NCBI GenBank assembly: GCA_032622095.1
Contig: CP136065.1
Span: forward strand, 154,445,577-154,509,576
From: Siphonodentalium dalli
Taxonomy: Eukaryota > Mollusca > Scaphopoda > Gadilida > Siphonodentaliidae
DNA length: 64,000 bases
Reading direction: 5' to 3'
This document shows positions 2,245 through 57,100 of this stretch, piece by piece (the first letter of the stretch is position 1; each line of letters starts with the position of its first letter). The notes under the pieces are model-generated. The model did not search any database. It was not told the origin of the DNA and saw only the letters and a list, made by a program, of their open reading frames with translations. The translations under genes were made by a program, and so were the position numbers.

Positions 2245-4100
2245 AACAGCTTGCTTTAGTTATGCGATAGTTTCCTTCCCCTTTAACGATGTCTTTGTTG
2301 AATTTTTTTCTGAGTGTCTATTAAACTTGAGTTAATTTGTATTGTTGTTAATTGTGTCTTCAAGAAATTTCAGGAATTATACATTGTATTTCAAAAGATT
2401 GCACATTTTTCATCAAAAATGTTGCTTTCTTGAATATTCTACATCGCACTGCCTTCCACTTTTAAAATCAAGCACTAATAGCAAGATCATAATAAAAATT
2501 GTCATGAAGGAATTCTTTAACAGGGCCTTGATAGGAAAATGAACAATCTAAGTTATCTTTTGATCTGGAAGAAATTAATGGGTCCTTAGATATCTAGAAG
2601 GATTAAGCTTTAAGTGGTTCATTACAAGTATGTAAAATGGTCACATAACATATTTCCAAAATCATATTTCACAAACAATTTTAACAGTCCCAAGTGGCTA
2701 TGCACCGGGATGCGCAATTCCACAAAAACAATGCACTTAACTATATCAGTTGAATTTAGTATTACCAGACCAGACAGTGCCTCATTTCTTAACCCTTTGA
2801 ACCCTGGAATATATATGTACAATACCTCATTCCATCGGTTGAAGAACAAAATGATGATGTTTCAAATTACATCTAAACCACTTTACTATAGAATCAAGCA
2901 CATATAATTCATTGTATAAATCAACTAGGATGCACTGAATTAGAAAACACTAAGATTTATCGAATAAATGAGTCTTATGTCCGGTGGTTGAGATTTCTTT
3001 GTCATGCCCACCAAAAGTTATCCCCAAATTTCCCTGTTGCAAAGGAACAGTATATTTTATATATATAATATTGACGTCATATATCAGATGGCATCAGGCG
3101 TCATTTGTTTGTGGCAATTAAATCAGATGTTTCATACGGCATCAGCTGTTCAGTTTTTCAATGTTGTATTAAAATGAGGGCTATATACATCATATAAAAA
3201 CAACTCCGAGATATACAATTATTCAGTAGTTGGACTTACTATGCCATGCTTGCCAACAGTTACCACCAGGTTTCCCTATGCAACCCTGAAAAATATATTT
3301 TTCCGGCCAACCGGAATATAGCCGTTTGTGTGTTGGCCGGTTTTCCGCCCAACTGGGTTCAAAGGGTAAATGATGAAAGAACCCAAAGTCCTGATGTGTT
3401 AGTTTGGGACACTGCTACGAGAAGATGGTATTTCTTTAATGATATATGTACATGTATTCAGGGATACAGCTAAATTTTACAGAACTTATTTTGCTTTTGA
3501 TTTGAATTTTATTGCATAAAGTGACATGTTTAGTTCCAGAATTTTATTATCAATTTATATTGATATATTTGTGATGATTTAGAGGGACACTAACAATTAC
3601 ATAATTAATTTTCCAATGAAAAATAACATCATGTGGTTTATGTTAGTCTACTTTATATTTAATATGTCATTCTAATAATTTGTAAATGTGACAAAGCCAA
3701 CAGTACTATAGTGATGTAAAATTGGATTATCAGAAAATAAGTTGTTGTAACTGGAGGTCTGGAACCCTGAGTACATATTTAATATTTTCTTGATCTAACA
3801 TGATAATAGCTCACAATTTTATGTAATTAGTACCCTGGTATTTTATTTATGTAATTGGTACCCTGGTATTTTATATAATTGTGATTTTATTTGTTCATTT
3901 TATTTATATAATAATGTTCTGAGAACCATCGTTATTTTATCGTTGTTGATATCAGATATTAATGTTTATTATTTACTTTCCCATGAATTATAAGGTTTTA
4001 GCAGTGAGATATAAGTGATATCCCACTAGTGAGATATAAGTGATATCCCACTGGTGAAATTTCTGATGTATTGACATTCATTGGGGGCCATAGGCAAGTA
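2245..4100. other. non-coding, with one dispersed repeat
   Basis: Around 3575-3770 is a repeat (GGGACACTAACAATTA.. to ..TGTTGTAACTGGAGGTCTGG) that recurs worn at about 9225-9425 and 20705-20850. A duplicated TGTAATTGGTACCCTGGTAT unit is at 3820-3870. Otherwise nothing. Confidence 0.5.
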
Positions 4101-4106
4101 ACTAAA

Positions 4107-4287
4107 GTATATAATAAACAGAATATCCACACTTTTTGAGTGGATATGGGTTAAATCTCATTCGTGATGACAAAACATTTGAATTTCCACTCGTAGCTAA
4201 AGCCACTCGTGGAAATTCAATGTTTTGTCATCACTCATGAGATATAACCCATATCCACTGAAAAAGTGTGGATATCCTCTATATAAT
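4107..4287. mobile_element. palindromic MITE
   Basis: About 180 bp with arms GAATATCCACACTTTTTGAG..AATTTCCACTCG and the inverse, and apex TAGCTAAAGC. It lies directly next to the element at 4294. A 27-bp unit (GTGAGATATAAGTGATATCC) is duplicated just upstream at 4003-4052. Confidence 0.75.
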
Positions 4288-15540: not shown

Positions 15541-15794
15541 CTTATGATGTCATACAGATAAAGCCTCTCGGCGATGAGTCAAGAGGTACGATTTAGTGCA
15601 AGTACATTATTTACGGGATGCGTCGAAAACGGAAACATAAGACGATCGATGGAATCAACTAATGAAAGTGTCAATGACACTGTAGCTCAACTTGGAAAGG
15701 GAATAATTTAATGTATTACAGTCAATGGATCGAGCGATTAGGAATGTGGAATGTTGAATGTCTAATACTAGTTAAAAGACATGAAGAGAAAAGT

Positions 15795-18445
15795 AAAATC
15801 CAAGATGGCTGCTGGCGGCCATGTTTTCGGCCGAATGACCCCAAAATGAGTCGTTCCCATCTACATGTCATCGTTAACATCCATGACAAATTTTATGACG
15901 ATCAGACTAAAGGTACAACCTGTAGCCCATGCTAAAGAATTTAGACATACAAAGAGTAAAATCCAAGATGGCTGCTGGCGGCCATGTTTTTTGGCCGAAT
16001 GACCCCAAAATGACTCGTTCCCATCTACATGTCATTATTAAACTTCATGAAAATTTTTATGATGATCAGACTAAAGGTACAACCTGTAGCTCGTGCTAAA
16101 GGATTTAGTCATACAAAGAGTAAAATCCAAGATGACTGCTGGCGGCCATGTTTTTTGGCCGAATTACCCCAAAATTACTCATTCTCATCTACATGTCAAT
16201 ATTAACATTCTTGACAAATTTTATGATGATCAGACAAAAACTAGGACCTGTAGCCCGTGCTAAAGGATTTAGTCATACAAAGAGTAAAATCCAAGATGGC
16301 TGCATGGCGACCATGATCAGACAAACAGTACGACCTGTGGCCCGTGCTAATGGATTAAATTTTGAAATCCAAGATGGCCGCTGGTGGCCATGTTTTTTGT
16401 CCGAATGACCCCAAAATAACTCGTTCCCATCTGCATTCCAATTTCAACAGCCATGACAAATTTTATGATGATCAGACTAAAGGTACGACCTGTAGCCCGT
16501 GCTAAAGGATTTAGTCATACAAAGAGTAAAATCCAAGATGGCTGCTGGCGGCCATGTTTTTTGGCCGAATGACCCCAAAATGACTTGTTCCCATCTACAT
16601 GTCATTATTAACATTCTTGACAAATTTTATGATGATCAGACAAAAACTAGGACCTGTAGCCCGTGCTAAAGGATTTAGTCATACAAAGAGTAAAATCCAA
16701 GATGGCTGCTGGCGACCATGTTTTTTGGCCGAATGACCCCAAAATTACTCGTTCCCACCTACATGACATTGTTAATATCCATGAGAAATTTTATGATGAT
16801 CAGACTAAAGGTACGACCTGCAGCCCGTGCTGAAGAATTTAGTGATACAAAGAGTAAAATCCAAGATGGCTGCTGGCGGCCATGTTTTTTGGCCGAATGA
16901 CCCCAAAATTAGTCGTTCCCATCTACATGTCAATATTATCATCCATGACAAATTTCATGATGATCAGACAAACAGTACGACCTGTGGCCCGTGCTAAATT
17001 TTGAAATCCAAGATGGCCACTGGTGGCCATGTTTTTTGTCTGAATGACCCCAAAATGACTCGTTCCCATCTACATTCCAATTTCAACAGCCATGACAAAT
17101 TTTATGATGATCAGACTAAAGGTACGACCTGTAGCCCGTGCTAAGTGATTTAGTCATACAAAGAGTAAAATCCAAGATGGCTGCTGGTGGCCATGTTTTT
17201 TGGCCGAATGAGCCCAAAATAACTTGTTCCCATCTACATGTCATTATTAACATTCTTGACAAATTTTATGATGATCAGACAAAAAGTAGGACCTGTAGCC
17301 CGTGCTAAAGGATTTAGTCATACAAAGAGTAAAATCCAAGATGGCTGCTGGCGACCATGTTTTTGGGCCGAATGACCCCAAAATTACTCGTTCCCACCTA
17401 CATGACATTGTTAATATCCATGATGATCAGACGAACAGTACGACCTGTGGCCCGTTCTAATGGATTGAATTAAAAGAGATTTGCCTTATGCGGAAGAAGA
17501 GGAAGAAGAATTTTGAAATCCAAGATGGCCACTGGCGGCCATTGTTTTTTGTCTGAATGACCCCAAAATGACTCGTTCCCATCTACATTCCAATTTCAAC
17601 AGCCATGACAAATTTTATGATGATCGGACTAAAGGTACAACCTGTAGCCCGTGCTAAAGGATTTAGTCATACAAAGAGTAAAATCCAAGATGCCTGCTGG
17701 CGGCCATGTTTTTTAACCTAATCACCCCAAAATGACTCGTTCCCATCTACATGTTATTATCAACATTCATGACAAATTTTATGATGATCAGACTAAAGGT
17801 ACGACCTGTAGCCCGTGCTAAAGGATTTAGTCATACAAAGAGTAAAATCCAAGATGGCTGCTGGTGGCCATGTTTTTGGGCCAAATGACCCAAAAATTAC
17901 TCGTTCCCATCTACATGTCAATATTAACATCCATGACAAATTTCATGATGATCAGACGAACAGTACAACCTGTGGCCCGTGCTAATGGATTGAATTTTGA
18001 AATCCAAGATGGCCACTGGTGGCCATTGTTTTTTGTCCGAATGACCCCAAAATGACTCGTTCCCATCTACATTCCAATTTCAACAGCCATGACAAATTTT
18101 ATGATGATCGGACTAAAGGTACGACCTGTAGCCCGTGCTAAAGGATTTAGTCATACAAAGAGTAAAATCCAAGATGGCTGCTGGCGGCCATGTTTTTGGG
18201 CCAAATGACCCCAAAATTACTCGTTCCCATCTACATGTTAATATTAACATCCATGGCAAATTTCATGACGATCAGAAAAACAGTACGCCCTGTAGCTCGT
18301 GCTAATGGATTGAATTTTGAAATGAAAGATGGCCACTGGCGGCCATGTTTTTTTACCGAATGACCCCAAAATTAGTCATTCTGGTCTAAATGTTGATGTC
18401 AACAGCTATGACAAATTTCATAATGATCCGACCAAAGGTACGACC
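15795..18445. repeat. ~164-bp tandem array with two unit types
   Basis: About 17 units, anchored on CCAAGATGGC at 15801, 15964, 16128, 16292, 16370, 16534, 16698, 16862, 17009, 17174, 17337, 17521, 17686, 17850, 18005 and 18170, and on a worn AAAGATGG at 18327. Type A reads GAGTAAAATCCAAGATGGCT. Type B reads TTTGAAATCCAAGATGGCC and carries ATTCCAATTTCAACAGCC. B units recur after every one to three A units. Frames across it are not conserved because 164 is not a multiple of three. A 2.6-kb core of ~160-bp units is the layout of the 'pearl' elements of bivalves; this is inference. Confidence 0.9.
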
Positions 18446-18466
18446 TGTAGACTGCATTGTTGACGC

Positions 18467-19153: not shown

Positions 19154-19735
19154 ACTAGCCGATGAGCCCGACGTTGTCCGCGCTATTCAAAAACCAAATT
19201 TCAAGTCGATATCTCCACCCGTTTCCGAGATCTGGTCTGCGCATGCGCGAAGCTGGCGTCGCACGGGCTCGGCGACCCGATAAAATTTGTATCCGGGGCA
19301 AGATACATTCACATAGCAAATTTCAAGTCGATAGCTCCACCCGTTTCCGAGATCTGGTCTGCGCATGCGCGAAGCTGGCGTTGCATGGGCTCGGCGACCC
19401 GATAAAATTCGTATCCGGGGCAAGATACATTCACATACCAAATTTCAAGTCGATAGCTCCACCCGTTTCCGAGATCTGGTCTGCGCATGCGCGAAGCTTG
19501 CGTCGCACGGGCTCGGCGACCCGATAAAATTCGTATCCGGGGCAAGATACATTCACATAGCAAATTTCAAGTCGATAGCTCCACCCTTTTCCGAGATCTT
19601 GTCTGCGCATGCGCTGCACGGGCTCGCCAATACGACAACGACGACCGCCTGGTCAAACTACACACACGTACCAAGTTTTGTCCCGATCGGTCGAGAATCG
19701 TAGATTTGTATAAATGACATACAGACAGACAGACA
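19154..19735. repeat. 122-bp tandem repeat in a third ACTAGC-type segment
   Basis: Four units with exact 122-bp spacing of CAAGTCGATA (19202, 19324, 19446, 19568). Each contains GATCTGGTCTGCGCATGCGC and GGGCTCGGCGACCCGATAAA and is GC-rich compared with its surroundings. Frames on both strands (84 to 121 residues) arise from the repeat. The segment closes with TCCCGATCGGTCGAGAATCG and a CAGACAGACAGACAAG tail. Confidence 0.9.
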
Positions 19736-27106: not shown

Positions 27107-28129
27107 TAACTAGTGTCACAATATTAAAACAGTGCTGTCGCATAATAAACTCAAATGAAAAACGTGACCGTAGTTATATTGAAAGTTATTTCTTTGTTGC
27201 AATATACCACAACATCTTGGTCTTTGTGGTAACAGCTTAGCCTAAGTTATTCTCAGAATTGATAATAAAACATAGGATACACAAGATATGCAATAAATAC
27301 AATGGCGACTACTTCATATACTGATTATTGCAAATAATTAGGTGAGATCGTCCAAATGCAAGTGAATTAAATTATAAAACAAAAACACATGTAATGGGAG
27401 CCAGATAGTCTGGTAAATGTCAAAAAACTTCAAAGGTTGAGCAGGATATATTTGCAACCTCTAGAAATGAGTGAACCTTCATGGAAGGTGTGAGGAAACT
27501 AACAGCAAGTGGCAAATTCAATCTTCTTTTTAAACTAACATATTACTCCCGTATTAAAATCAAACAACATTACACAATTTCTAGTTTTCCAATCTTGGTA
27601 AAGAAAAGGTGAAGGTCAATTTACTTTCATAGCCGATTCTGAAAAACTAGCTGATAATAGAACTCTAAATAATATACTCTAAATATTAAATATAACTTCT
27701 GAGAGAAGAATAAGTTGCACAACAACTGATTAAATTTCCAAGTTGATACTATTTGAGATCATGTCTCAATTTTTCTAACAGAGTGCGATTTATACATTGA
27801 TTTCCAAGATTCTTTTACTCTGTAAGCAATGGGTAGTCATGGGCAAGGTTGCAATGAAGATTGAGGTATTTCGGCTGAACAATAGCGTAGTGATGAACGG
27901 CAGCCTCATTAGAATCCCGCTATCACAGATTTTACAGGTGGGCTACTTATTCGGGAACATCCAGGTGCCTGAGTTAAAAATTATAACAATTGATGATGGA
28001 AGCCAGAGCAAAAACCAGAGAAAAAAGAAATGCAATTTAAGACAGACACATCTACAGAAATAAGAGATTCAACAGCATTTTTTTTGTTTACCATTTTAAC
28101 CCTTTGATAACTAAATAATCAGATGAGCA

Positions 28130-28343
28130 CAGTAATGCCCTAAATAATCGACTCCTTAACCACAGCAGAATTATGGGTAACTTTTCAGGATTTAGTCGGA
28201 AATATGGCTGGTTGCCATTCATCGGAAAGCTCTCAGTGAGAGCTTTCCAGTGAATGGCAACAAGCCATATTTCCGACTAAATCCTGAAAAGTTACCCATA
28301 ATTCTGCTGTGGTTAAGGAGTTGGATTATTTATGGCATTACTG
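28130..28343. mobile_element. CAGTAATGCC fold-back MITE, full copy
   Basis: 214-bp near-perfect palindrome, apex CTCTCAGTGAGAG, downstream flank TA. Confidence 0.85.
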
Positions 28344-31300
28344 TAGTTACTTGACTGTCATTGATTCATTTGTAGGAATGTTCACAAGTGCTTCTCAGCC
28401 TGTTATTTACCAAGTGTCGAAACATCCCTGTAAAATCAACAATGGTATACTTTAGATTTGAATAGGGAAATCTATTTAGTAATCAAAGTGCTAATACAGG
28501 TAACCAAAATAAATTTTATTGTGATAGATCCATCAGAAATTAAAATTCTAACAGTACTAAATGTAAAAAAAAAATTTATGGCAAAAACAATCCAAATAAT
28601 CAAAATAAGCCACTTAAAATTGCATGGCATTAAAATGATTCAGAAACTGACGCGTGACGAATCAATGCTGATTGCGATGATCATAATAGCCTTATAAAAT
28701 CAACTGCTTCAATGTTGGAATTGCATAAACATGGTTTATATAAAGATGATATTTTGTACCAATAAAATGTTTTAATACCATTTCAGCAGAAATAAGACAT
28801 AAACACAGGACAGGACTCCAACCATCTGCTAGTACTCTTTTTAATTATTTTTCATGTGGTTCAAATGCTCCATACTTTTTGTGCGATGTCTACAGCAGAG
28901 TTCCCACAGGTTAGAACTAATCAAATTCAAGGGCACTTTGACAATTTCAAGACCGTAAATTTTGAAATTCAAAGCCAATTCTCAGCAATTTTGACAATTT
29001 TTCAGGGCTATCATAATATGCAAATCATATTCAATTTCAAGTCCAGCAAGCGGTGCAGATATTGCTGAAATTCAATATTATTCAATGACCCATATGGCAA
29101 TTCCAAGACTTTTTCGGGTCCTGAATGGCCATTTATCATATTCTGCACAATTTTTAATAAAATATAGTAACTTTTGACAGTTAAAACTGTATTATTTGTA
29201 ATCTAATTGTTCCGTAAAATGGTTATTTTAAAGGAAGGAGTCCTACGGTGTGAGAATAATCCTAGTTTAAACTGGAAGAGAAACAGTCCTCAATATATAG
29301 TTCCCACTGAGCATGTGCAGTTCTCATCAATGTAACAGTATATGTGTGCTTGCAGAAAAGTTTGCTACACCAACAATTTGCTTAAAATTTGCACAATACA
29401 TAATACTGAGTTAGAAATTATCTTTTACGAATAATTTCCGACAATTGAAAAAAAAATATTTTGGTTTTAATTCAAATTTTTAAATTTCCAATTGTAAACC
29501 AGACCAAAGAACAAGCTAAATATGATAACTTCGTAATCACTAAATGGGACTAATTTGTTGAACTATTCCCCAACTAGTATAGATAAATAGTGGGTCAATT
29601 AACCAAATATTGGATGACGGATGAAATCCAGGAACAAACTCTAAGCTTCAACACAAAAAACATCTACTGTAGTGAAATAATACACTGTGGATGGATAGTT
29701 CAAAATCTTATGCAATTGATGGAAAATATCAGACATTTTTTTATTTTACAAATTTGCTGAATATCCATCTTCAATCAAGATTTTGAAAATTTCAGGAAGA
29801 CGAATTTCAATGCACATGTCTGTCGGTAAAATCCCCGTTTTAAATTTAGAAATCTCAGATTGTTTCAGTAAATTCATGTTTCGATGCCTGAATATCGCAT
29901 GCTCACTCCATCAATCATATATTTTGAACTATCCATCTTGTTGATATATATTACTATAAATCATATATTCAACACACTATCTGTACAAAGGAATGTGACA
30001 ATTTGATGGCCGGATAGGACAAAATATTTGTGAAATCATTCTACTTCAGAACAGAACTAGCACCATATTGCACCTCAAACAATATTGGAATTTATTCACG
30101 CATTGACACATTTAGACAGAATCCCAGCCATTTCATACATATTATTCTATACCTCTTGTGGAATACAAGCCGGAACGGAACTATTGTTCTTGACATTGTC
30201 GCTAAGAAAGAGGATGTACATTACGTCAACGTTCTGCATTTGGGTGATGTCCAGATTACTGGTTACTAATCAGACTTCCATCACAATAAAGGTAGCAATA
30301 CAGTATCAATGAAGGTGAGTTATGGATTGATCTTATCTGACACAACAGTGTAGAATAAACAAAGAACACAACATGCATCAATCTTTTATCGAAATCGTTG
30401 CGGACGGCAGTTACATTTCGCTGGAGCGAATTATATCCATTTCGCTAGAGCGAAATATATCCTTTTGCCATCCACAACTCATTTGGTAAAGATTCTTGAT
30501 TAAGATGAGCGTTGTGTATGGTCTATATATCCACAAGTTGTTATTACCTTTAGAAATTTTACAACAGGTAAATATTTTTTTTTTTAGAGAAATCAAAAGT
30601 ATATGCAAGAGTGAAAACGCAATGAAAAATTTATAATTTAATATTTCGTTTTCTGTAAATACAGGATTCTTGACAACCAATTAGATATTTGCATTAAATT
30701 TTGTTAATATCTTAAGACTGAAGATCAGACCTTTTTTACTAGTATGTGGACAAGCAAAATATGAAATATATTTCACTACAATTCACCGGAAGAATGATTT
30801 CACAGTTTGAATCAGATTGTGGGAAAGCCTCAGTTTCCTTCTGAGGATCAGTGTTGATGGCTTGAGATATATTGTAATGTTTTGTTTGAAAGACATTGTG
30901 ATAAGCATGTTAAGACATTAATAAGGAACAGAACCGTCTGCCGCTGCTGCCACGATGGAATTCACGAAAGAAAAAAAGAAATAAGAACACAAAACATTAA
31001 GCTGTACACAGTAGCAATTAGAAATAAACATGGATATAAATAATCGTGATGCCATTTTCCCAAAACAATGTTGATTAAATAATACTAGAATTACATGACA
31101 AAATAGTGATTTACATACAACAACCGTAGAAATATCTGACAATCCATTTTGAGAAATTAGTCCATTTAGAGCTTGAGTGATGTTCAGTAAACAAGCATCA
31201 TTTATTAATGTTTGATATAAATGAGATATCTCAAATTTGGTTATGTCAGTTTGCTGAGTCGATATAATATCTCCAGTCTGAATTAGCTGATGGTATTTGA

Positions 31301-31928
31301 AATAAAAGCTGGTAATGTTTTTAAAGTAAAATTGAAAATCGTCAAACGCAAAAATGTTTTAATTATAGGTTTGATTAAATTGGAAATGATGCAAAGTTTG
31401 ACTTAGATGTGCTCAGATGGTGGTCAACTTACAATTAGTTCATAACTCAAGTTTGGGAAAAGAATGAAGACAAATACTATAATGCCAGTAGCGCATTACA
31501 GTAAAGTTTTCTTCAGAATTTACAACATTATTTATATTTTTAACATTATAAACTTGATTGAAACACAAGTTATTATTCACTCATCGCGTCCAATTTAGTT
31601 ATTTCATTAATGATATTAATAATTAATTATTTCAAACTAACCACCAGCTAACTCAGAAAATGGCATACATTAATTGCAATTTATGTGTACAGTTAAGACA
31701 AAGATATTCAACAACTCATTTTATATATCAATAATCGTTGATCAAACATCATAAAGCCCCATCATAAACAAGGCAAAATGTCATCACACCTGATTACACA
31801 TCAAATTAACCCTTGACACGTTTCATAAGATCTTTGACCTGGAGGTGATGAAATTTAAGAAAGGATGGAATCGTTCAATATGGTGAAATAAGAGACGAAA
31901 CGTCAGGGATCTGTCCGCAGTAACAGCA

Positions 31929-32141
31929 CAGGAATGTCCTAAATAATCGACTCCTTAACCACAGCAGAATTATGGGTAACTTTTCAGGATTTAGTCGGAA
32001 ATATGGCCTGTTGCCATTCATTGGAAAACTCTCAGTGAGAGCTTTCCAATGAATGGCAACAAGCCATATTACCGACTAAATCCAGAAAAGTTACCCATAA
32101 TTCTGCTGTGGTTAAGGAGTTGATTATTTAGGACATTACTG
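31929..32141. mobile_element. CAGTAATGCC fold-back MITE, full copy
   Basis: 213-bp near-perfect palindrome with a few arm mismatches (CAGGAATGTCC at the left end), downstream flank TA. Confidence 0.85.
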
Positions 32142-32561
32142 TATATGCAAAGGGTTAATTTGTTTTGAGAAATCACACAAGGGATTTGGCCTCACACAGC
32201 CAATATACTTACTGATTGATATAACAACTGATAATATAATAGAGACATGTTCTTGATTCAATCATTATTAAATCACTGGCGGACGAACAACTACACTAGT
32301 ATTAAAAATAAAATGACTGAAAGCTTCAAGGGCACTTTTAAATACTATTGCAAATTCACCCCGTGATTCAGCAAATCATGACTTGCAGCTGAACAGGCAA
32401 ACTCCTAACAATGAAATGGGTATCATATCATAGGAACACAATAGTATTTGATATTTGGCATGACAAAGGTTAAGCTTGATTTACAGTTCTTCAAAGCTCA
32501 ACCTTGAGCAGTCCCTTTCCTTCGACCCTTATAATGCTGAACCCAATGCTCAGGACTTGGA

Positions 32562-38374: not shown

Positions 38375-38830
38375 TCACATGGAATCCTTGCCGAGAATCG
38401 AGCTAAGGAGAGGAGTTGCATTGTGGTCGTCATTCTGACCAGACCCCCAAGGGTCGCTGTTCCACATGCTGTTGCCGCTGTTACCTGAATTCTGGTAACT
38501 TCCGCCGATTGAGTATGTCGTCGATCCTGTAGATGAGCTGCCGCTCCATTGGCTGGAACTGTTGCGCGATATGCTTGCTTGAGACTGTGGGCCAGCGGCA
38601 GACAGTGAGCTACCTTGCTGCTCGTATATTCGGCGGACATCTGCTTCCGGCACAAAATCAGCCAAAATGGTTGTGTTGCCAAGGACGCAAGTATTGAGGG
38701 CCTTCTGTGCCTTCAGTGATTCTTCTGTCGATGAATAGCACACCAAGGCGAATCCCTGATTCAGATTCATTAAGAACATCTGCAGTGGGCCATGCTGCTG
38801 GCATAATGTTTTCAGTGTGGAAGCATCAAT
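38375..38830 (-). CDS. TNRC6: TNRC6 exon H: RRM and C-terminal tail
   Basis: Terminal coding exon; the acceptor GCATTTCAG precedes 38830 and stop TGA is at 38375-38377. It encodes IDASTLKTLCQQHGPLQMF and onward, then VLGNTTILADF, the strongly conserved TNRC6 RRM body (about residues 1372-1443). This RRM is known in the family not to bind RNA in the usual way. A Ser/Gly/Asn-rich tail of about 80 residues holds three Trp (SQWSGS, MWNSDPWGSG) and ends LLSSILGKDSM, comparable to the vertebrate Leu-Leu..Leu-Gly end. The tail is shorter than in vertebrates. Confidence 0.96.
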   Translation of the reverse strand: MDASTLKTLCQQHGPLQMFLMNLNQGFALVCYSSTEESLKAQKALNTCVLGNTTILADFVPEADVRRIYEQQGSSLSAAGPQSQASISRNSSSQWSGSSSTGSTTYSIGGSYQNSGNSGNSMWNSDPWGSGQNDDHNATPLLSSILGKDSM

Positions 38831-41800
38831 CTGAAATGCACACAAAGGGCTATTATAAACACAGTTGGCAAGTACATAAGGTGTTATCCTGGGTATTTTG
38901 GGAGTTGATCAGGGGCCCCTACAATGGTAAATAATTTTCAAGCTACTAAATAATCCCCCATCTCCCAACAAATGTTCAATGTTTGCAGCAGTTCAAACAT
39001 TCAATTGTGTATATTCATACTACGGTTACACCTTCCATGACTTTCCCCAATCAGACAACTTGTAACTACAAATGGCCTGACAGAATGCGATTAGGTATTT
39101 TTAGGCCAAAATTGGGAAATATCAGGTCTATTTTGTATTTGGATCGGGACCGATATCCCCCTGGGGCAACCTAGGATATTCCCTGTACATTGTATAATTT
39201 CTTTCAACCTAAATCTTTTTTTAACCTGATGGAAGTCTTCCATTTTTTTTGTATTTCCAATGTATGAAAGGATGTTTTCAAAAGTATGCAATAATTGAAG
39301 TGCAATATCAGTTAATCTCAAAGGCATAACTTGACAGTTTCATGTTGGGCTTTTTGAAAAACTACATTCTATTATCATATTTGAGCATATGCTCCATACT
39401 TTTGAGAGGTTTACAGTAATGCCTTAATTAATCGACTCCATAACCACAGCAGAATTATGCTGTGGTTATGGAGTCGATTAATTAGGGCATTAATGTAGCT
39501 GATGCTGGTGGCTGAGATATATTGAATCTGTAGATAAAATGAGCTCTCTCAATATGTAGGCAATGTTAATAGATTTGTGATAGATTTTTAAACAGAATAC
39601 ACTGCTCTCAATGTGTTGTTGAATTTCCAGCTATATCGCAACTGGCAAATGGGAAAATTTATGATGCAAAAATACCGTATATGACAGGAGAGTGAAAATG
39701 AGCAGCTTAAGATAACAATTATTATTCAGGGCATCATATTAATGACACTTTTTTTCATAACCAATTCGTGTTTCACAAAAGTGAATTACTTTTACACTGA
39801 CCTGAGGCGTCAAATTTCTGAGAGTTAACCATACGGATGGAGTGAAGTTTCTGTCCAAACCAGCTGAAAAAAGAAATAAAAGATGTAAATTAAATAACAA
39901 ATTTCATCGTGCATTGAGACGCAAGCTGAGAAGATGTTTAAAGAATTGAAAGACAGACGGATGAGGAGTGATGAGTATAGCTCCACCGGAGACTTCGTCT
40001 CAGGTGAGCTAAAAAGTAAATAATATCCACTTTCGAAGGAATGGCAGTTTTCATAGTAACAAAATTAATTAACATACACATCTTGTAGCATAATTCAACA
40101 TTGGTTTCCACAGGTTAAAACTAATGCATTAAACCTTTCATGACTGGAGCTTCCAGAAATTTAGCGAAAACCCTGTGACAATGCATTCTCTTATGTATGC
40201 GAAGCACCCTATCGGCTGAGAAGTTGCTATATTCATGTTATTCATCTCTGGTATTGGTCCTATTGGATCATTAAATATTACTGCTTGTGGTCGTTGCCGG
40301 GGGCGACTCAGTTGAAGAACTTGTCTGTGGCTTCAACAGTTACTGCTGGGCCTGAGCAATTGTTCAGTTGCTGCTGCAGGATTTGTTGACGAGCTGAATT
40401 CAATATTTACCTTGATCGTGTAAGCCAGTGTATTCTCATATATATATACACAAAATTCCCTATGGTAGATGCGCTTATATAAGAGAATGTATTGGCACAG
40501 GATCTTTAATGATGCACCAGCATTAAAGGGTTGATGACCATTTCACACTTTTGACGCTATTTCAACTCACTACAATTCCGTAACTCAAGGCCATTTTTAA
40601 GTATCCAAATGCTGCCAGTCTATTTATCATTTTTCAGGCCTTAAAGAGCCACTTATTAGATTCAAGGCTAGCCCAGTTGGATCCCTGATATCTATTACTC
40701 TCAGGTGCCTAATAATATTATTGTGTTGACACTTGCTTTTGAAGAAAATTTCACATGATCCAGCATGATCACTATTATTTGGCAAAGAGACCGAGTGATA
40801 TTGCCATCTCTATTATTAATTTTAGCCAAAAATTCCACCATCACTGTTATTTAGGCCATCACTATTATTAGGCACCTTAAGAGAAGTAACACTTACTCTG
40901 TTGGAATGCAGAACCAGATGAACGGCCAGCCCAAGATTGTTGGCGCATCGTTGATCTTCCAGCCATACCCTGTGATGGAGGACGAATATCAAGATTGTTC
41001 TTCGGTAGTGGCACGTTCCAGATCTGAGAGGTAAAGCTTGTCGGGGCGACAGACTCATTTGGCCATGACTTGTGGAGACCAGGTGTCAGTGAATTGACAA
41101 TTGAGTTGGCCGTGTTGAACTGGGAAGTATCAGTACTCGGGCTAGACTTGGCCTGGCTTGTCAGGTTGTTCAAATATTCATCTTTGATTGTGTTGACGCT
41201 AAGTTGACGGGCGCAGCTTCCTGGCGTAATATGAGGATCATCCTCTGGGTTCTTTGAAAGCTTTTGGATTCCACCCCAAGGCTGGCCGGGAACGAACTCT
41301 ATGACTGAATCGTTGTTTTCAGCATCATTTGCAGCCGAGTTTGGTGTCGCAATTGCTGTCGTTGGGGCAGTTGACACCGGAGTCAAATCAGTTGGTGAAG
41401 TAGCTTTGATTTCCCCTGTGGACTCTTTTGCATCACCAACTGGAGATCCCTTATTGCTTTTTGTCGGCCAGTTAGCTAAATTTGAACTTGCAGCATTTGA
41501 CCAAGTGGTATCGCCGCTCAAGTTGAGACTCATTGCAGAACCAAGGTTTGGGGTCGACTGCGATTGGTGAATCGGTTTACTTCCAACAGCTTTGTTCAGA
41601 GAACTTTCGCCTGCATCAGAAGAGTCGCTACTTACAGATGACGGCGTCTTCCATTGTTTCAGACGGGACTGTGTCTGTGGCCCAGGCTGAGAAGTTGCTA
41701 TATTCATGTTATTCATCTCTGGTATTGGTCCTATTGGATCATTATTACTGCTTGTGGTCGTTGCCGGGGGCGACTCAGTTGAAGAACTTGTCTGTGGCTT

Positions 41801-44800
41801 CAACAGTTGCTGCTGGGCCTGAGCAATCTTCTGTTGCTGCTGTAGGATTTGTTGACGAGCTGAATTCATTATTATAACCAACTGTGAGAGCTGATACTGA
41901 CCCCCTCTTTCTTGTTGCTGCTGCAGCTGCTGTTGCTTGGCAACCAACTGTTGCAGCACTTGCTGTTGTTGCAATAACTGCTGGATAAGGATGAGCATCG
42001 GAGGTGGGAGAGGGTGTGTCAATAATTGGGGGTCAATAAGACCAGTGTTGACAGCCATTTTGAGTTGCTGATGAATCTGCTGAGTCGCTTGTTGATGCGC
42101 CACCTGGTTTGTGAGCTGGTTGCGCCCAGTGAGAGGTTGACCTGGCGGAGGAGTAAAGTTATTCATTGGCTGAACTTGTAGCAGCTTCTGCTGAAGATTC
42201 TTCTGTTGCATCATATTAATACTGGGGTTAGGAGTAAGACTAGAGTGAGGCAGACTAGTACCACCTTGCTTCAGATTGGCTATAGCTGGATTTGGTACTT
42301 GAGCATTTTGAAATGGAGTATTTTGCATGGAATTGTTGGTAGGCACAAGTGAGTTGTCATTCTGAGTATCTGATATGTCATCGTTTGACAGAGAGTTGGC
42401 AGGTGCCATCCCTGAGCCTGTCAGCTTCCTCGGCACACTGCTGAATACGTCCGAATCAGATTCTTTTTTAGCACCTTGAACAAGATCAGCTGCAAATGAA
42501 AATAGTACAGTTTAAAGATTTAAGCTGCTTTCATAGACCTGCGGCTGGTGCATGCGGCTATCTGGTAATAGGCGCAACATTTCAAACCATACATATATCA
42601 ATGGGGCTGCGGCTGATTTAGTTGAACGCAACAGATTTCAAAACTTTTTTAAATCAGATGTGTTTAACTAGGTCAGCTGCAAACCAGTGATATATGTATG
42701 GTTTGAAATGTTGCGCCGCATGCATTGGTCTCATGCGTCAGCCACGAAATTTTTAGATAACTAAATAACTCACTGAAGAGTAGATAACTCATTGAAGAGT
42801 AGTTCACTCAGGGAATTATCAGTTAATAAAGGTTAACAAACACTGTTTTTGAACTTATATCCCAACATTCCTTCCAAATGAAAAAATAGGAATCCTATGT
42901 CTTCTGCGCTTTTATCATCAAAACACTCCTCCAAATGAAGAATAGACCATTTCTAAGTATTCATTATACAATACGTGATGGGAGAATATATTCAATAAAG
43001 AAAGGGTTAATAAAAATTAATGATTAATACCGTATTATATAAGTCTAGCCGATGAGCCCAAAATATATATGAGATATATATCCCTAAGTTTAACACCCTA
43101 ACCAATCATAATTCTGGCCTGATCATCCATACTGGTAATGGCTCAATGATTGAAATTGAGAAACACCAAAACAACCTCATCAAATAATGAAATCATTCCA
43201 CATTTAAGAGTGGCACAATCTATACCTATTTTCCTTCTAAATTTCAATTATAAATATGAGCTTTTAACAATTACTGATTTTTAAAAAATCCACTTCGGGT
43301 TAGAGGCTTGATTGGCGACATAGGTTCCTAGCCCTTAACAATCTTGTGCTATTTGCTATTATATTTAGTTTCAAGGAAATTACAATTTCTTTTATATAAT
43401 GAAATCTAGAACCATGGCTAGTATCGCAGATGCTAGTCGACATCTAATTTTCTCTTTGTTGAGAAATAAGCAACACAGGTTGTAAATCTGAAAGTTTTTC
43501 TCCTACTTACCAAGTGCACTTTCAAAATTCATATTGTTGGTTATGAGAGCAGCTTGGGCATCATCTTTCTGCAAAGAGAGCGATGTGGAAAACATTGATT
43601 CACTGATCTCAGACAACAGCCGAAAACACAAATAACAAGACAGTCAAAGACTGTGGGGTCGCTCACCAGACTGCAAAGACTGATAAGACTGGGACTTTGG
43701 AGACCATAACAGTTAGAACTTTTCATAATCACTTTAAAAAAGTAGATCTAAACAGGATATGTAGATAGAGAGGCTTCATGTACCAACTGTACGCTACTGA
43801 TCACCCCCCCCCCCCCCATGTAGTGTGAGTGGGGTCTCTGCCCCTATTTGAACAAACATGAATCCCCATCTCTGATATCTATTCATCTTATAATTATAAA
43901 CATTCGCTTTTAAGAGTTGAAGTTAATTGATTTTCCAAAAAGGCCCCCATTGGAACAGATCTAAACATGCCACCCAAGGACCCTGCATACACAAATATAA
44001 GCTAAATAGACTTGATGGTTCTTGAGTAGTAATAGTTGTTAGAATTACTATGGAGGGAAAACGTTGTGGCCCTGGCACCCCTCCTATTTGACCTGGTGAA
44101 CTTATTTGAACAAATCTGAATGTGAGTCACATACAGGTAGAGAATTCATATAGATCTCGAGAAGAAAACAATTGTTGATGGATGGATGGACAGAACAATG
44201 GATGGAAGTACACTCCAACCGACCAACAGATTTAATCCAATATACCCCCACACTTTTTTGTCCATAATAAGGTATAATGAGGTCACATAGCTAAGTGGTT
44301 AAGAAAATAATATTGGAACAGCCAAGCGTGAATTTAGTGTGTCTGAGGTCCCAAAAGGGTGAATGTAGTGATGCTATTCTGTAAGGTAGGCTAGCATCAC
44401 CAAATTCACCATCTGGGAACCCAATTTTACTTAGTCCCAACTGCTATGGGAGACCTAGGGACAGACAGAAGTTCTCCAGCTGAAGTTGGTGACATTACTG
44501 ACATATGAATACACTCCCTGGGGACTGTGCCTATAGCTACAGAAGTTCTCTTATCTTTCTATCTGGCCATGATTATAAACAACATGTGTCATGTCTGTCA
44601 GTTCAGAGCAGAGTTGGCTTGTAATGGGAATGCACAGATACTAGTATTAAAAGGAATTTACTGAACATTTCTGTACATCTGTCTGTTCATCTTTTCTCCC
44701 AAACCCCTGATTTCAACCAAATTTAGTGGGGAGACTAGAGGTACCTACCCCCCCCCCCCCCGAAGATGTAATGTCATAAGTTCTTCAAAATTTTAATTAA

Positions 44801-54100: not shown

Positions 54101-57100
54101 ATGGTGCATCCATGGGTTTGGTTGCTGTGATTACTAATAAAAGTGAGCACAATCCATTATTTGGACTCCCATCAAATTTGGGTTGAAAATGGGTTAGCAA
54201 AGACCTTAAAACATTCTTATCATGACCAGCATGCAAAGTGAATTAACCATGTTACAATGCTCGAGAATATTGACCCTTTGTTTACTAAATCTTCATTGAC
54301 AAGTAGTTCCCATAGCAATGTTCAGATAACAAGTTCAACAAATTATCACTAAGGTCATTTATTGAACTTATTATCTGAACATTTCCCTCCAATAAATAAG
54401 ACTTAGGACTTCTGCACTTGTATTAGCTTTCCGTCTTATCTCATCTGCTCCAAACATTCATCCAAATTAATAATAGACAATTCCAATGCAAACTTTTTCG
54501 AGTGAATGGGACATTCAGTACAGAAAGGGTTAACTCTTCCATGACTGGAGCTTCGTGAACTTTTGCGAAAACCCTGTGCCAATGCATTCTCTTATATATG
54601 CGAGTCTCCCATGGGAGCCTCGCATATATGAGAATACATTGGCCTAACAATATTTACCTCGACCTTGTAAGCCAGTGCGAGACTCGCATATTTAAGAGAA
54701 TGCCCTGGCACAGGATCTTTTAATACCAGCGCAGCTCCCGCCATGATAGTGTTAAAGAAACATTTCAGAGTTATACTTATCATTGTTCCTTTCTGTGCGG
54801 AAATATATTCAACATTTAACACTGAGCAAAACAAATGTTAGTACACAATATAATGTTAAGAGAGATGTTAACTTGATAAAACGAAGTGCAGCTGCTGCAT
54901 CGCAGAACTGAAATGTGCCCAACTTCTTGTCTCGCGATACCTTAAACTGATTGAGTATCTTCCTGCCGCGTGCGCTTGAAGCGCTTGTCCACGAGCAATT
55001 AAACTCTTGCATGTCACTCCAGTTGCCCATGTCAGCATCATTCCAATTTCTCTGAGACTCAATCCATGAATCTGCCTATATAGCAAAAGGACCAAAATGA
55101 AGGACCATTTAGTACATTTAAAACTTGAACCTAATCTCACTTGTAGTCATACTTTACTTGAAGCGAAGAACAGGATAACAGCATAACAGGGCTTAAAATC
55201 TAACGAGAATCAGAATCATGATTCTCAGTGATTCTCGTAAAAGCAGCCGATTCGCTGTAGAAGTGCTATGTTTTGAATCCCGCAATTTAAATTTTTTTTA
55301 TTTTAAGGCTTGCAGTTGAAACTTATCACCATGATATTTCAAAGAGTCAAACTTGTGTGACAAAAGTAATGAATAGGCCAGATATTGTTTCTACTGGTAA
55401 TTATACAAGGCCTTATGTGTTGTTTGATTCATGGAAGGCATACATGTCTCCAATAGCTCCAATTTGTTTTATTTGAACAAATAACATTCCGTATACGCTT
55501 TCCAATATTGAGAATATCCAACTTCTAGGATTATTTGACAAAAAGGTCCTTAATATTGATTAACTTTCACATAATTGAACCTCTGATCCTTCAATAAATT
55601 TGGAACTGTCCATTGTTCAAGACCAAATGTCAGCCTGAATATACACCACTACTTCAAAGATGAAAAAAGCAATTTTCTTTATAAACATTTTTGAACAATC
55701 TAATTTTTTAATTTGTTTGAACAATCAATAGTGCCAAGTATGATTGACAATATATTTCCATATACCATTTTTGCATGAATCAATGAAATTGAAACTCAGA
55801 ACTGGAACATTTCTCATCAAACCAACCAATCAGTCACCGAGAAAAATTGCTTTTGAAAGTCACTAGTTCCAAGTAATTATGACGAGTAAAAGCCAAGTAT
55901 TCATGTATATGATTCGCTATACTGCATACCTTGTCATGCTTCATTTACAGTCAGAACAGAAATGACATGGAATTTTCGGATTTTACATTTTTAGCCTAAT
56001 ACTTTCTGAACGTAATAAAATACATCATCGGGCAGTCACAAACTGACACCAAGCTCTGTCAATAGTTCAGCCTCGCCAGGAATGCAGAACCATCACAAAT
56101 ACATACCAGTACATATAATGAAAAATATCCCAAAATGTACAGGAACGATAATCATGAAAAGCTTGTCCATTTTTTTATTTTTAAATCAAGAATACCCATA
56201 TTCTGTTTGAAATGCTCAATAAAATAAATTCAATGCAGATGTTAAAAGTTCAGTGTGCCATGGCCTGTGTAAATTTTTCAAGATTATCCCTCACTATAAA
56301 GGATTGCCAGCTAGCAACAGAAAGGAAGTTATCAGCAATTTGCATCCATTTTTTTTAAATTTAAATTTAGAAAATTAATTAACCTTATTTCATGCAATTG
56401 AGTAACTTACTCCTAGGTTGATAAACACAAATAATTATGCCAAATATTGTCCATCAATTGTTTACTCTTCACTTCATAGCTGAAAAGACTGCATAGAGAC
56501 ATCTGTCTCTTCGGCAATAAAGAACAACACATGCCACAAATACATCTAACTACTAGTAACAAAAGCAGACAATGTAAATGGCATTGGACACTCGCAAGGT
56601 CGGCAAGGAACATTCATGCTTAAGGGTGGGATATTAAACAAGGGATATATTAATCGATTCCCTGAAATTAAAATTCAATTCTAACAGCTTTGTGAAAAGC
56701 GATGGTATGGTCATGAGCGATTTGACCAAAAGTCGAAAACGGATTATATTGTGACACTTCTGTATTTTTTCTTTCTTCAGAGTCAGAAATGGGTCACTTA
56801 CTTTCTTTGCATTCTGAGCATTCCAGTTGGCTTCGTTATTGTCTTGCCAATTTGAATTGGGCTGCTTTGGACGTGCAATAGGGTTCCAACTAGCATTATT
56901 TGCTGTATCACCCCAACCGGCTGCTTGGGCCTGCAAAATGTATTTAATTGTTTAACCCTGAAAATGGTCATTCTGAAAACTTATCAGAATTAATCCACAT
57001 TTTAAGGGAGTTTGACTCGCTATATCCTGAAAGAAGAATTGCAGGGTAAATACCACAAAGAGAAACTGACTAACTACAACAACAAAACTACTAAACACCA

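Follow-up and report, generated by a model that had tools for sequence, protein, structure and literature searches.

Plant Pack-MULEs are elements with terminal inverted repeats (TIRs) that contain a host gene fragment; their ends are of the MULE type and are bordered by target-site repeats of 9-11 bp, and their cargo is frequently, but not universally, spread by transposition. The main text of Tan et al. (2021; PMC8277862) reports that Pack-MULEs are more often multicopy (36% in rice) and describes 370 Pack-TIRs in animals, of which 323 belong to hAT or TcMariner elements and none was found in insect and bird reference genomes. As presented there, most single-copy cases arose by gap filling without transposition: 160 of 281 lie within 15 kb of their source, the microhomology at the joins has a median of 2 bp, the breakpoints are skewed inward, and 91 of 97 primate cases were captured after the element had inserted; the authors invoke "internal fragile sites" (Tan et al., 2021; PMC8277862). 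Templated insertions left by microhomology-mediated repair or replication are, in the parts of that literature we drew on, known from cancer cells and yeast breaks. Here we describe a copy of an exon fragment inside a miniature TTAA element of the scaphopod Siphonodentalium dalli, which we interpret as a known kind of animal DNA repair scar and not as a gene-carrying transposon, the new detail being its anatomy at the tip of a hairpin.

The analysis was centered on a stretch of 64,000 nucleotides (the window). The original prediction was that a TTAA-type miniature element in it holds a near-identical copy of a TNRC6 exon fragment in the same orientation, and the alignment confirms this. The copy (40214-40402, plus strand) and its source, a Gln-rich stretch of the exon (41685-41868; the gene is on the minus strand), agree at 180 of 184 aligned bases and differ by 4 mismatches and by two gaps in the copy, of 4 and 1. 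In a self-BLAST of the window the pair appeared once among the matches listed, as 40214-40407 and 41685-41873, with an E value of 1.3e-81 that excludes chance. The two sequences lie on the same chromosome, with a start-to-start spacing of 1466-1471 bases (~1.47 kb). Elsewhere in the window, the self-comparison revealed tandem arrays at 15789-18450 and 19185-19614, and another short repeat is present in three copies (537-759, 28126-28350 and 31925-32145) that are 92-95% alike and match one another on both strands.

A plain tandem or segmental duplication reaching beyond the element had been named as the alternative that would speak against capture. It was rejected, as the similarity ends at the joins and is not continued in the 200-base flanks of copy and source: the left flanks score 13, a weak short match that 2 of 200 shuffles attained, and the right flanks score 9, as 113 of 200 shuffles also did. 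The proposed search for further copies was carried out on the whole 2.23-Gb genome with the insert as query; it returned two candidates, both of which matched, namely this copy and the TNRC6 exon. Within the sensitivity of this search, in which weak matches may be missed, no other element was found to carry the TNRC6 piece; since it occurs at two places only, nothing shows that it moved as cargo. That the duplicate arose in assembly has practically no probability in our view: the locus is represented by one assembly only, but the two copies are separated by 4 substitutions and 2 indels, and the joins fall at meaningful positions of the element.

A 544-codon open frame on the minus strand contains the source; it has a match to the Pfam TNRC6-PABC binding domain (E 8.3e-8) and another, below the Pfam cut-off, to the GW182 M domain. 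The next downstream open frame (38375-38908, minus strand), with predicted exon limits, encodes an RRM for which a comparison with PDB sequences at E 0.01 gave GW182 alone (2wbr, E 2.5e-18). By these domain matches the host gene is identified as GW182/TNRC6. The source exon is placed at 40897-42511 (minus strand), where the 3′ end is predicted from a GTAAGTG donor at 40890-40896 and 42511 is the limit of the open frame, not a proven exon start. With limits predicted in this way, the element sits in an intron of ~2 kb between the source exon and the RRM exon. All three frames of the copy are interrupted by stops on the strand of the gene. The insert derives from within one exon and is in the sense of the TNRC6 transcript, as would also be expected if a break had been filled from the pre-mRNA or cDNA of the gene itself. 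However, nothing separates an RNA from a DNA template here, the insert contains no splice join, and a DNA template 1.47 kb away suffices, so that we regard an RNA-templated patch as extremely unlikely.

On the basis of the sequence, the family search and the alignment to the family consensus, the element that holds the copy was delimited to 40129-40534 (plus strand), with a TTAA at 40129-40132 on the left and a right repeat mutated to TTGA at 40531-40534. The consensus, derived from 61 copies, is 263 bp long (TTAACCC...GGGTTAA), and its terminal repeats are alike at 17 of 19 positions. Inside it are two hairpins with stems of 32 bp and loops of 3 bases (hairpin 1 is paired at 30 of 32 positions and hairpin 2 at 31 of 32), separated by a short core with AATATTTACC. 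In each of the genome searches for relatives the best 40 candidates were scored, and one candidate, L003, whose left side consists of another repeat, was for that reason excluded from the final consensus and from the deletion and insertion counts. A related repeat (L003, C1:6711145 and others) has hairpin 1 with another loop (GCGACCTATGGTCG...GGCACAGGG), followed by different sequence. The captured copy has a 12-bp end deletion in common with copy L004. An insert-free sister had been placed at 54534-54751; it does belong to the same family and lacks the insert, but including the TTAA its limits are 54530-54755 (plus strand), and positions 152-182 of the consensus, in hairpin 2, are deleted. 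In single-strand folding compared with shuffles, copy L010 (z -10.7) and the sister (z -8.5) were both better, and the captured copy with its insert gave a z of -4.2.

The ends of piggyBac-like elements start with CCC. The consensus has such ends together with TTAA target-site repeats, of which the right one of the captured copy reads TTGA, and the TTAA ends suggest that the family is related to piggyBac. Matches to the piggyBac transposase family number 128 in the genome, and many of them have no stops (e.g., L074-L083), which suggests that the superfamily was recently active. Among the 10 of these 128 loci that were scanned, the terminal repeats of the miniature family were absent, the best agreement being 15 of 22 positions. 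The miniature family itself is abundant: a pattern anchored on the exact sequence of hairpin 1 and the core at normal spacing had 4,122 matches in the genome, some in tandem or segmental arrays. At C2:168935279-168936223, C1:225962830-225963190 and C3:21874555-21875007 hairpin-plus-core units follow one another head to tail at a spacing of ~96-97 bp; these arrays look satellite-like and derived from the miniature element. At C1:736280-921487 near-identical element units recur every ~14.6 kb and then every ~11.2 kb, forming large tandem arrays.

Alignment of the captured copy to the consensus showed that the exon copy replaces the right arm of hairpin 1 and its foot CCTAACA, a loss of 39 bp or 14.8% of the element. 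Retained on the left are the left arm (40178-40209) and the loop (40210-40212, in the flipped TAT form), i.e., hairpin 1 up to its tip (40178-40212, plus strand), so that the left join coincides with the tip of the stem. There follow one C and then a GG that is also present in the element after the loop (40213-40215, plus strand). On the right, the element resumes at ATATTTACC directly after the terminal CA of the exon copy (40401-40402, plus strand), and the core, hairpin 2 and the right end are kept (40403-40534, plus strand). The microhomology therefore amounts to 2 bp (CA) on the right, and on the left either to 2 bp (GG) or to none with one added base. This is less than the GGCTGAG and ATTCA originally taken as bases shared by element and exon: GGCTGAG in full belongs to the exon and does not occur in the consensus. 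Random joins have a microhomology of at least 2 bp in 16% of cases, so 2 bp is within chance, and in ~9% of random pairs of breakpoints one or the other lies no more than 3 bp from a tip.

The missing arm could have been lost first, by an ordinary deletion, with the exon piece inserted later and independently at the scar. Losses of most of this arm with no filler do exist, in copies L059 (84-113) and L069 (84-109), but this order of events needs two events at one spot, where a one-step gap fill covers both, and we consider it improbable.

The relative ages of element and insert were estimated from their divergence. The element body differs from the family consensus at 25 of 212 sites (8 of 83 in the left part with the TAT form of the loop, rising to 11 of 83 with the other form, and 17 of 129 in the right part), versus 4 of 184 sites between insert and source exon (Fisher P 0.00017). 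For the other copies the median divergence is 7.2% on the left (measured in 51 of the 61) and 5.7% on the right (in 42 of the 61); since the captured copy is more diverged than these, part of the 25 differences may reflect a subfamily. In a sensitivity test that assumed 15 differences in 212, about half of the 14% distance to the nearest relatives, the contrast gave a P of 0.032. The difference between body and insert points to capture most likely in place, well after the element had landed, and the insert is probably younger than the residence of the element at the locus. Gene conversion from the exon could have kept the insert young and so mimicked a late capture.

These estimates also bear on capture during transposition, in which the exon piece would have been acquired at excision or re-insertion, in a Pack-MULE-like or FoSTeST-like manner, and have traveled as mobile cargo. 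The TTAA-type ends would suit such an origin, and the many stop-free transposase frames make activity possible. However, the piece is found only here and at its source, it is less diverged than the body of the element, and its breakpoints are internal, at a hairpin; moreover, that a cargo copy should land by chance as near as 1.47 kb to the exon it came from, in a genome of 2.2 Gb, would be a very rare coincidence. Taken together, the two-place occurrence, the proximity and the order of divergence argue against capture before or during transposition, which we judge very unlikely. The link that the original prediction had drawn to mobile cargo of the Pack-MULE sort was accordingly dropped: the insert is single-copy, and the element around it looks much older.

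Our preferred reading, in which an old intronic TTAA element was later patched in place, seems to us highly likely as a whole. The miniature element would have inserted in the GW182/TNRC6 intron long ago. Much later, its first internal hairpin may have broken, or stalled a replication fork, at the tip, and the downstream arm of the hairpin would have been lost. The broken end would then have been extended on a template of ~184 exon bases, which lie 1.47 kb away and were copied in the same orientation, and have been joined again to the core of the element, directly beyond the hairpin, at the 2-bp match CA. The data show the copy and its limits, the loss of one arm, the single occurrence of the piece within the sensitivity of the search, and the order of divergence. 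We infer the hairpin as the cause, the break itself, the use of a DNA and not an RNA template, the copying by template switching or synthesis-dependent gap filling, and the enzymes. Template switching at short microhomology, by which an exon of the same gene was copied into a piggyBac-like TTAA element, remains the most likely route, as had been proposed.

On each feature testable here, the case fits the single-copy Pack-TIRs that Tan et al. (2021), in their main text, trace to gap filling independent of transposition. A TIR element contains an internal copy of foreign genomic DNA, here from the host; the insert is present in a single copy near its source on the same chromosome, the joins have short microhomology, the breakpoints are internal, and capture appears to have followed insertion. 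The differences are that our element is a TTAA miniature, whereas theirs are mostly hAT or TcMariner; that the gap lost exceeds their median of 4.6% of the element (PMC8277862); and that a breakpoint lies at a hairpin tip, the words piggyBac and hairpin having no occurrence in the main text of that paper. The claim that such captures are seldom described therefore fails for animal TIR elements generally, given that gap filling accounts for most single-copy cases among the 370 Pack-TIRs (PMC8277862). No Pack-TIR capture in piggyBac elements was found in a narrow literature search, mostly of journals open without subscription. With plant Pack-MULEs the locus has in common a host gene fragment within a TIR element, but the superfamily and the target-site repeat are different, the consensus ends here being TTAA, and no spread of the cargo by transposition is seen. 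With templated insertions, as far as described in the sources we drew on, it has in common a template copy at a break and short microhomology, but it is a germline scar in a hairpin element.

Whether tips break more generally was examined in the other copies of the family. The 37 copies that were retrieved by searching with the captured copy contain 24 distinct deletions, of which 7 have an edge at a tip, where 3.3 were expected (P 0.04). In all 61 copies this holds for 20 of 48 distinct deletions, with 7.1 expected; 24 of the 61 copies are biased, namely the sister with its deletion in hairpin 2 and those retrieved by searching with the sister. Insertions of at least 3 bases, in turn, speak against tips as insertion sites, with only 1 of 30 near a tip in the 61 aligned copies.

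Fillers past the tip of hairpin 1 were sought with sequence patterns. All patterns miss diverged copies, the captured copy included, because they are anchored on exact hairpin sequence. A pattern allowing a gap of 102-161 bases had 345 matches; among the ~100 matches listed, many were by eye tandem units or related repeats, and three copies with foreign-looking sequence after the tip (L039, L040 and L041) were traced. In L039, 78 bp (4043-4120), starting 14 bases past the hairpin 1 loop, come from inside a dispersed repeat that has at least 39 other places at 95-96% and no Rfam match at E 1. The filler of L041 is by eye an AT-rich repeat, and a search within 4 kb for templates of the L039 and L041 fillers gave nothing other than short or AT-rich matches. 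In L040, a chimera of elements, the 19 bases directly after a tip (4008-4026) are identical to 3465-3483 on the other strand, ~0.5 kb away (E 1e-5; 50 shuffles gave no match at E 1e-3), and are possibly a short local templated filler. Stricter patterns with changed bases adjoining the core matched 4, 4 and 8 places, one of them in common, and by eye only C6:42572147 (L070) had non-element sequence directly past the tip. Two further patterns for changed bases at the tip matched 10 and 16 places, which cannot prove a hot spot since they were selected for such changes. Among individual loci, C5:106191107 has by eye, at the hairpin 1 tip, an insertion of ~19 bases that match hairpin 2, and C7:142752554 a longer hairpin-2-like piece. 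A hot spot at the tip was not established by fillers; insertions do not favor the tip, and deletions alone do.

These observations suggest, but do not prove, that the hairpin tip is a general fragile site. We propose only tentatively, and with some doubt, that the long hairpins in this family break repeatedly: their tips would break or stall replication forks, with loss of an arm and patching of the gap from a nearby element, repeat or exon. The hairpin tip to which the capture is tied is a concrete candidate for what the main text of Tan et al. (2021; PMC8277862) calls "internal fragile sites". In this single case, ages can moreover be estimated for element and insert alike, and both point to capture in place and not to mobile cargo. 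The family has thousands of hairpin units within one genome and could serve to measure how frequently patching of this sort occurs and over what distance templates are copied. If the hairpins do break recurrently, intronic copies of the element would be a standing source of exon-fragment duplications in the genes that host them.
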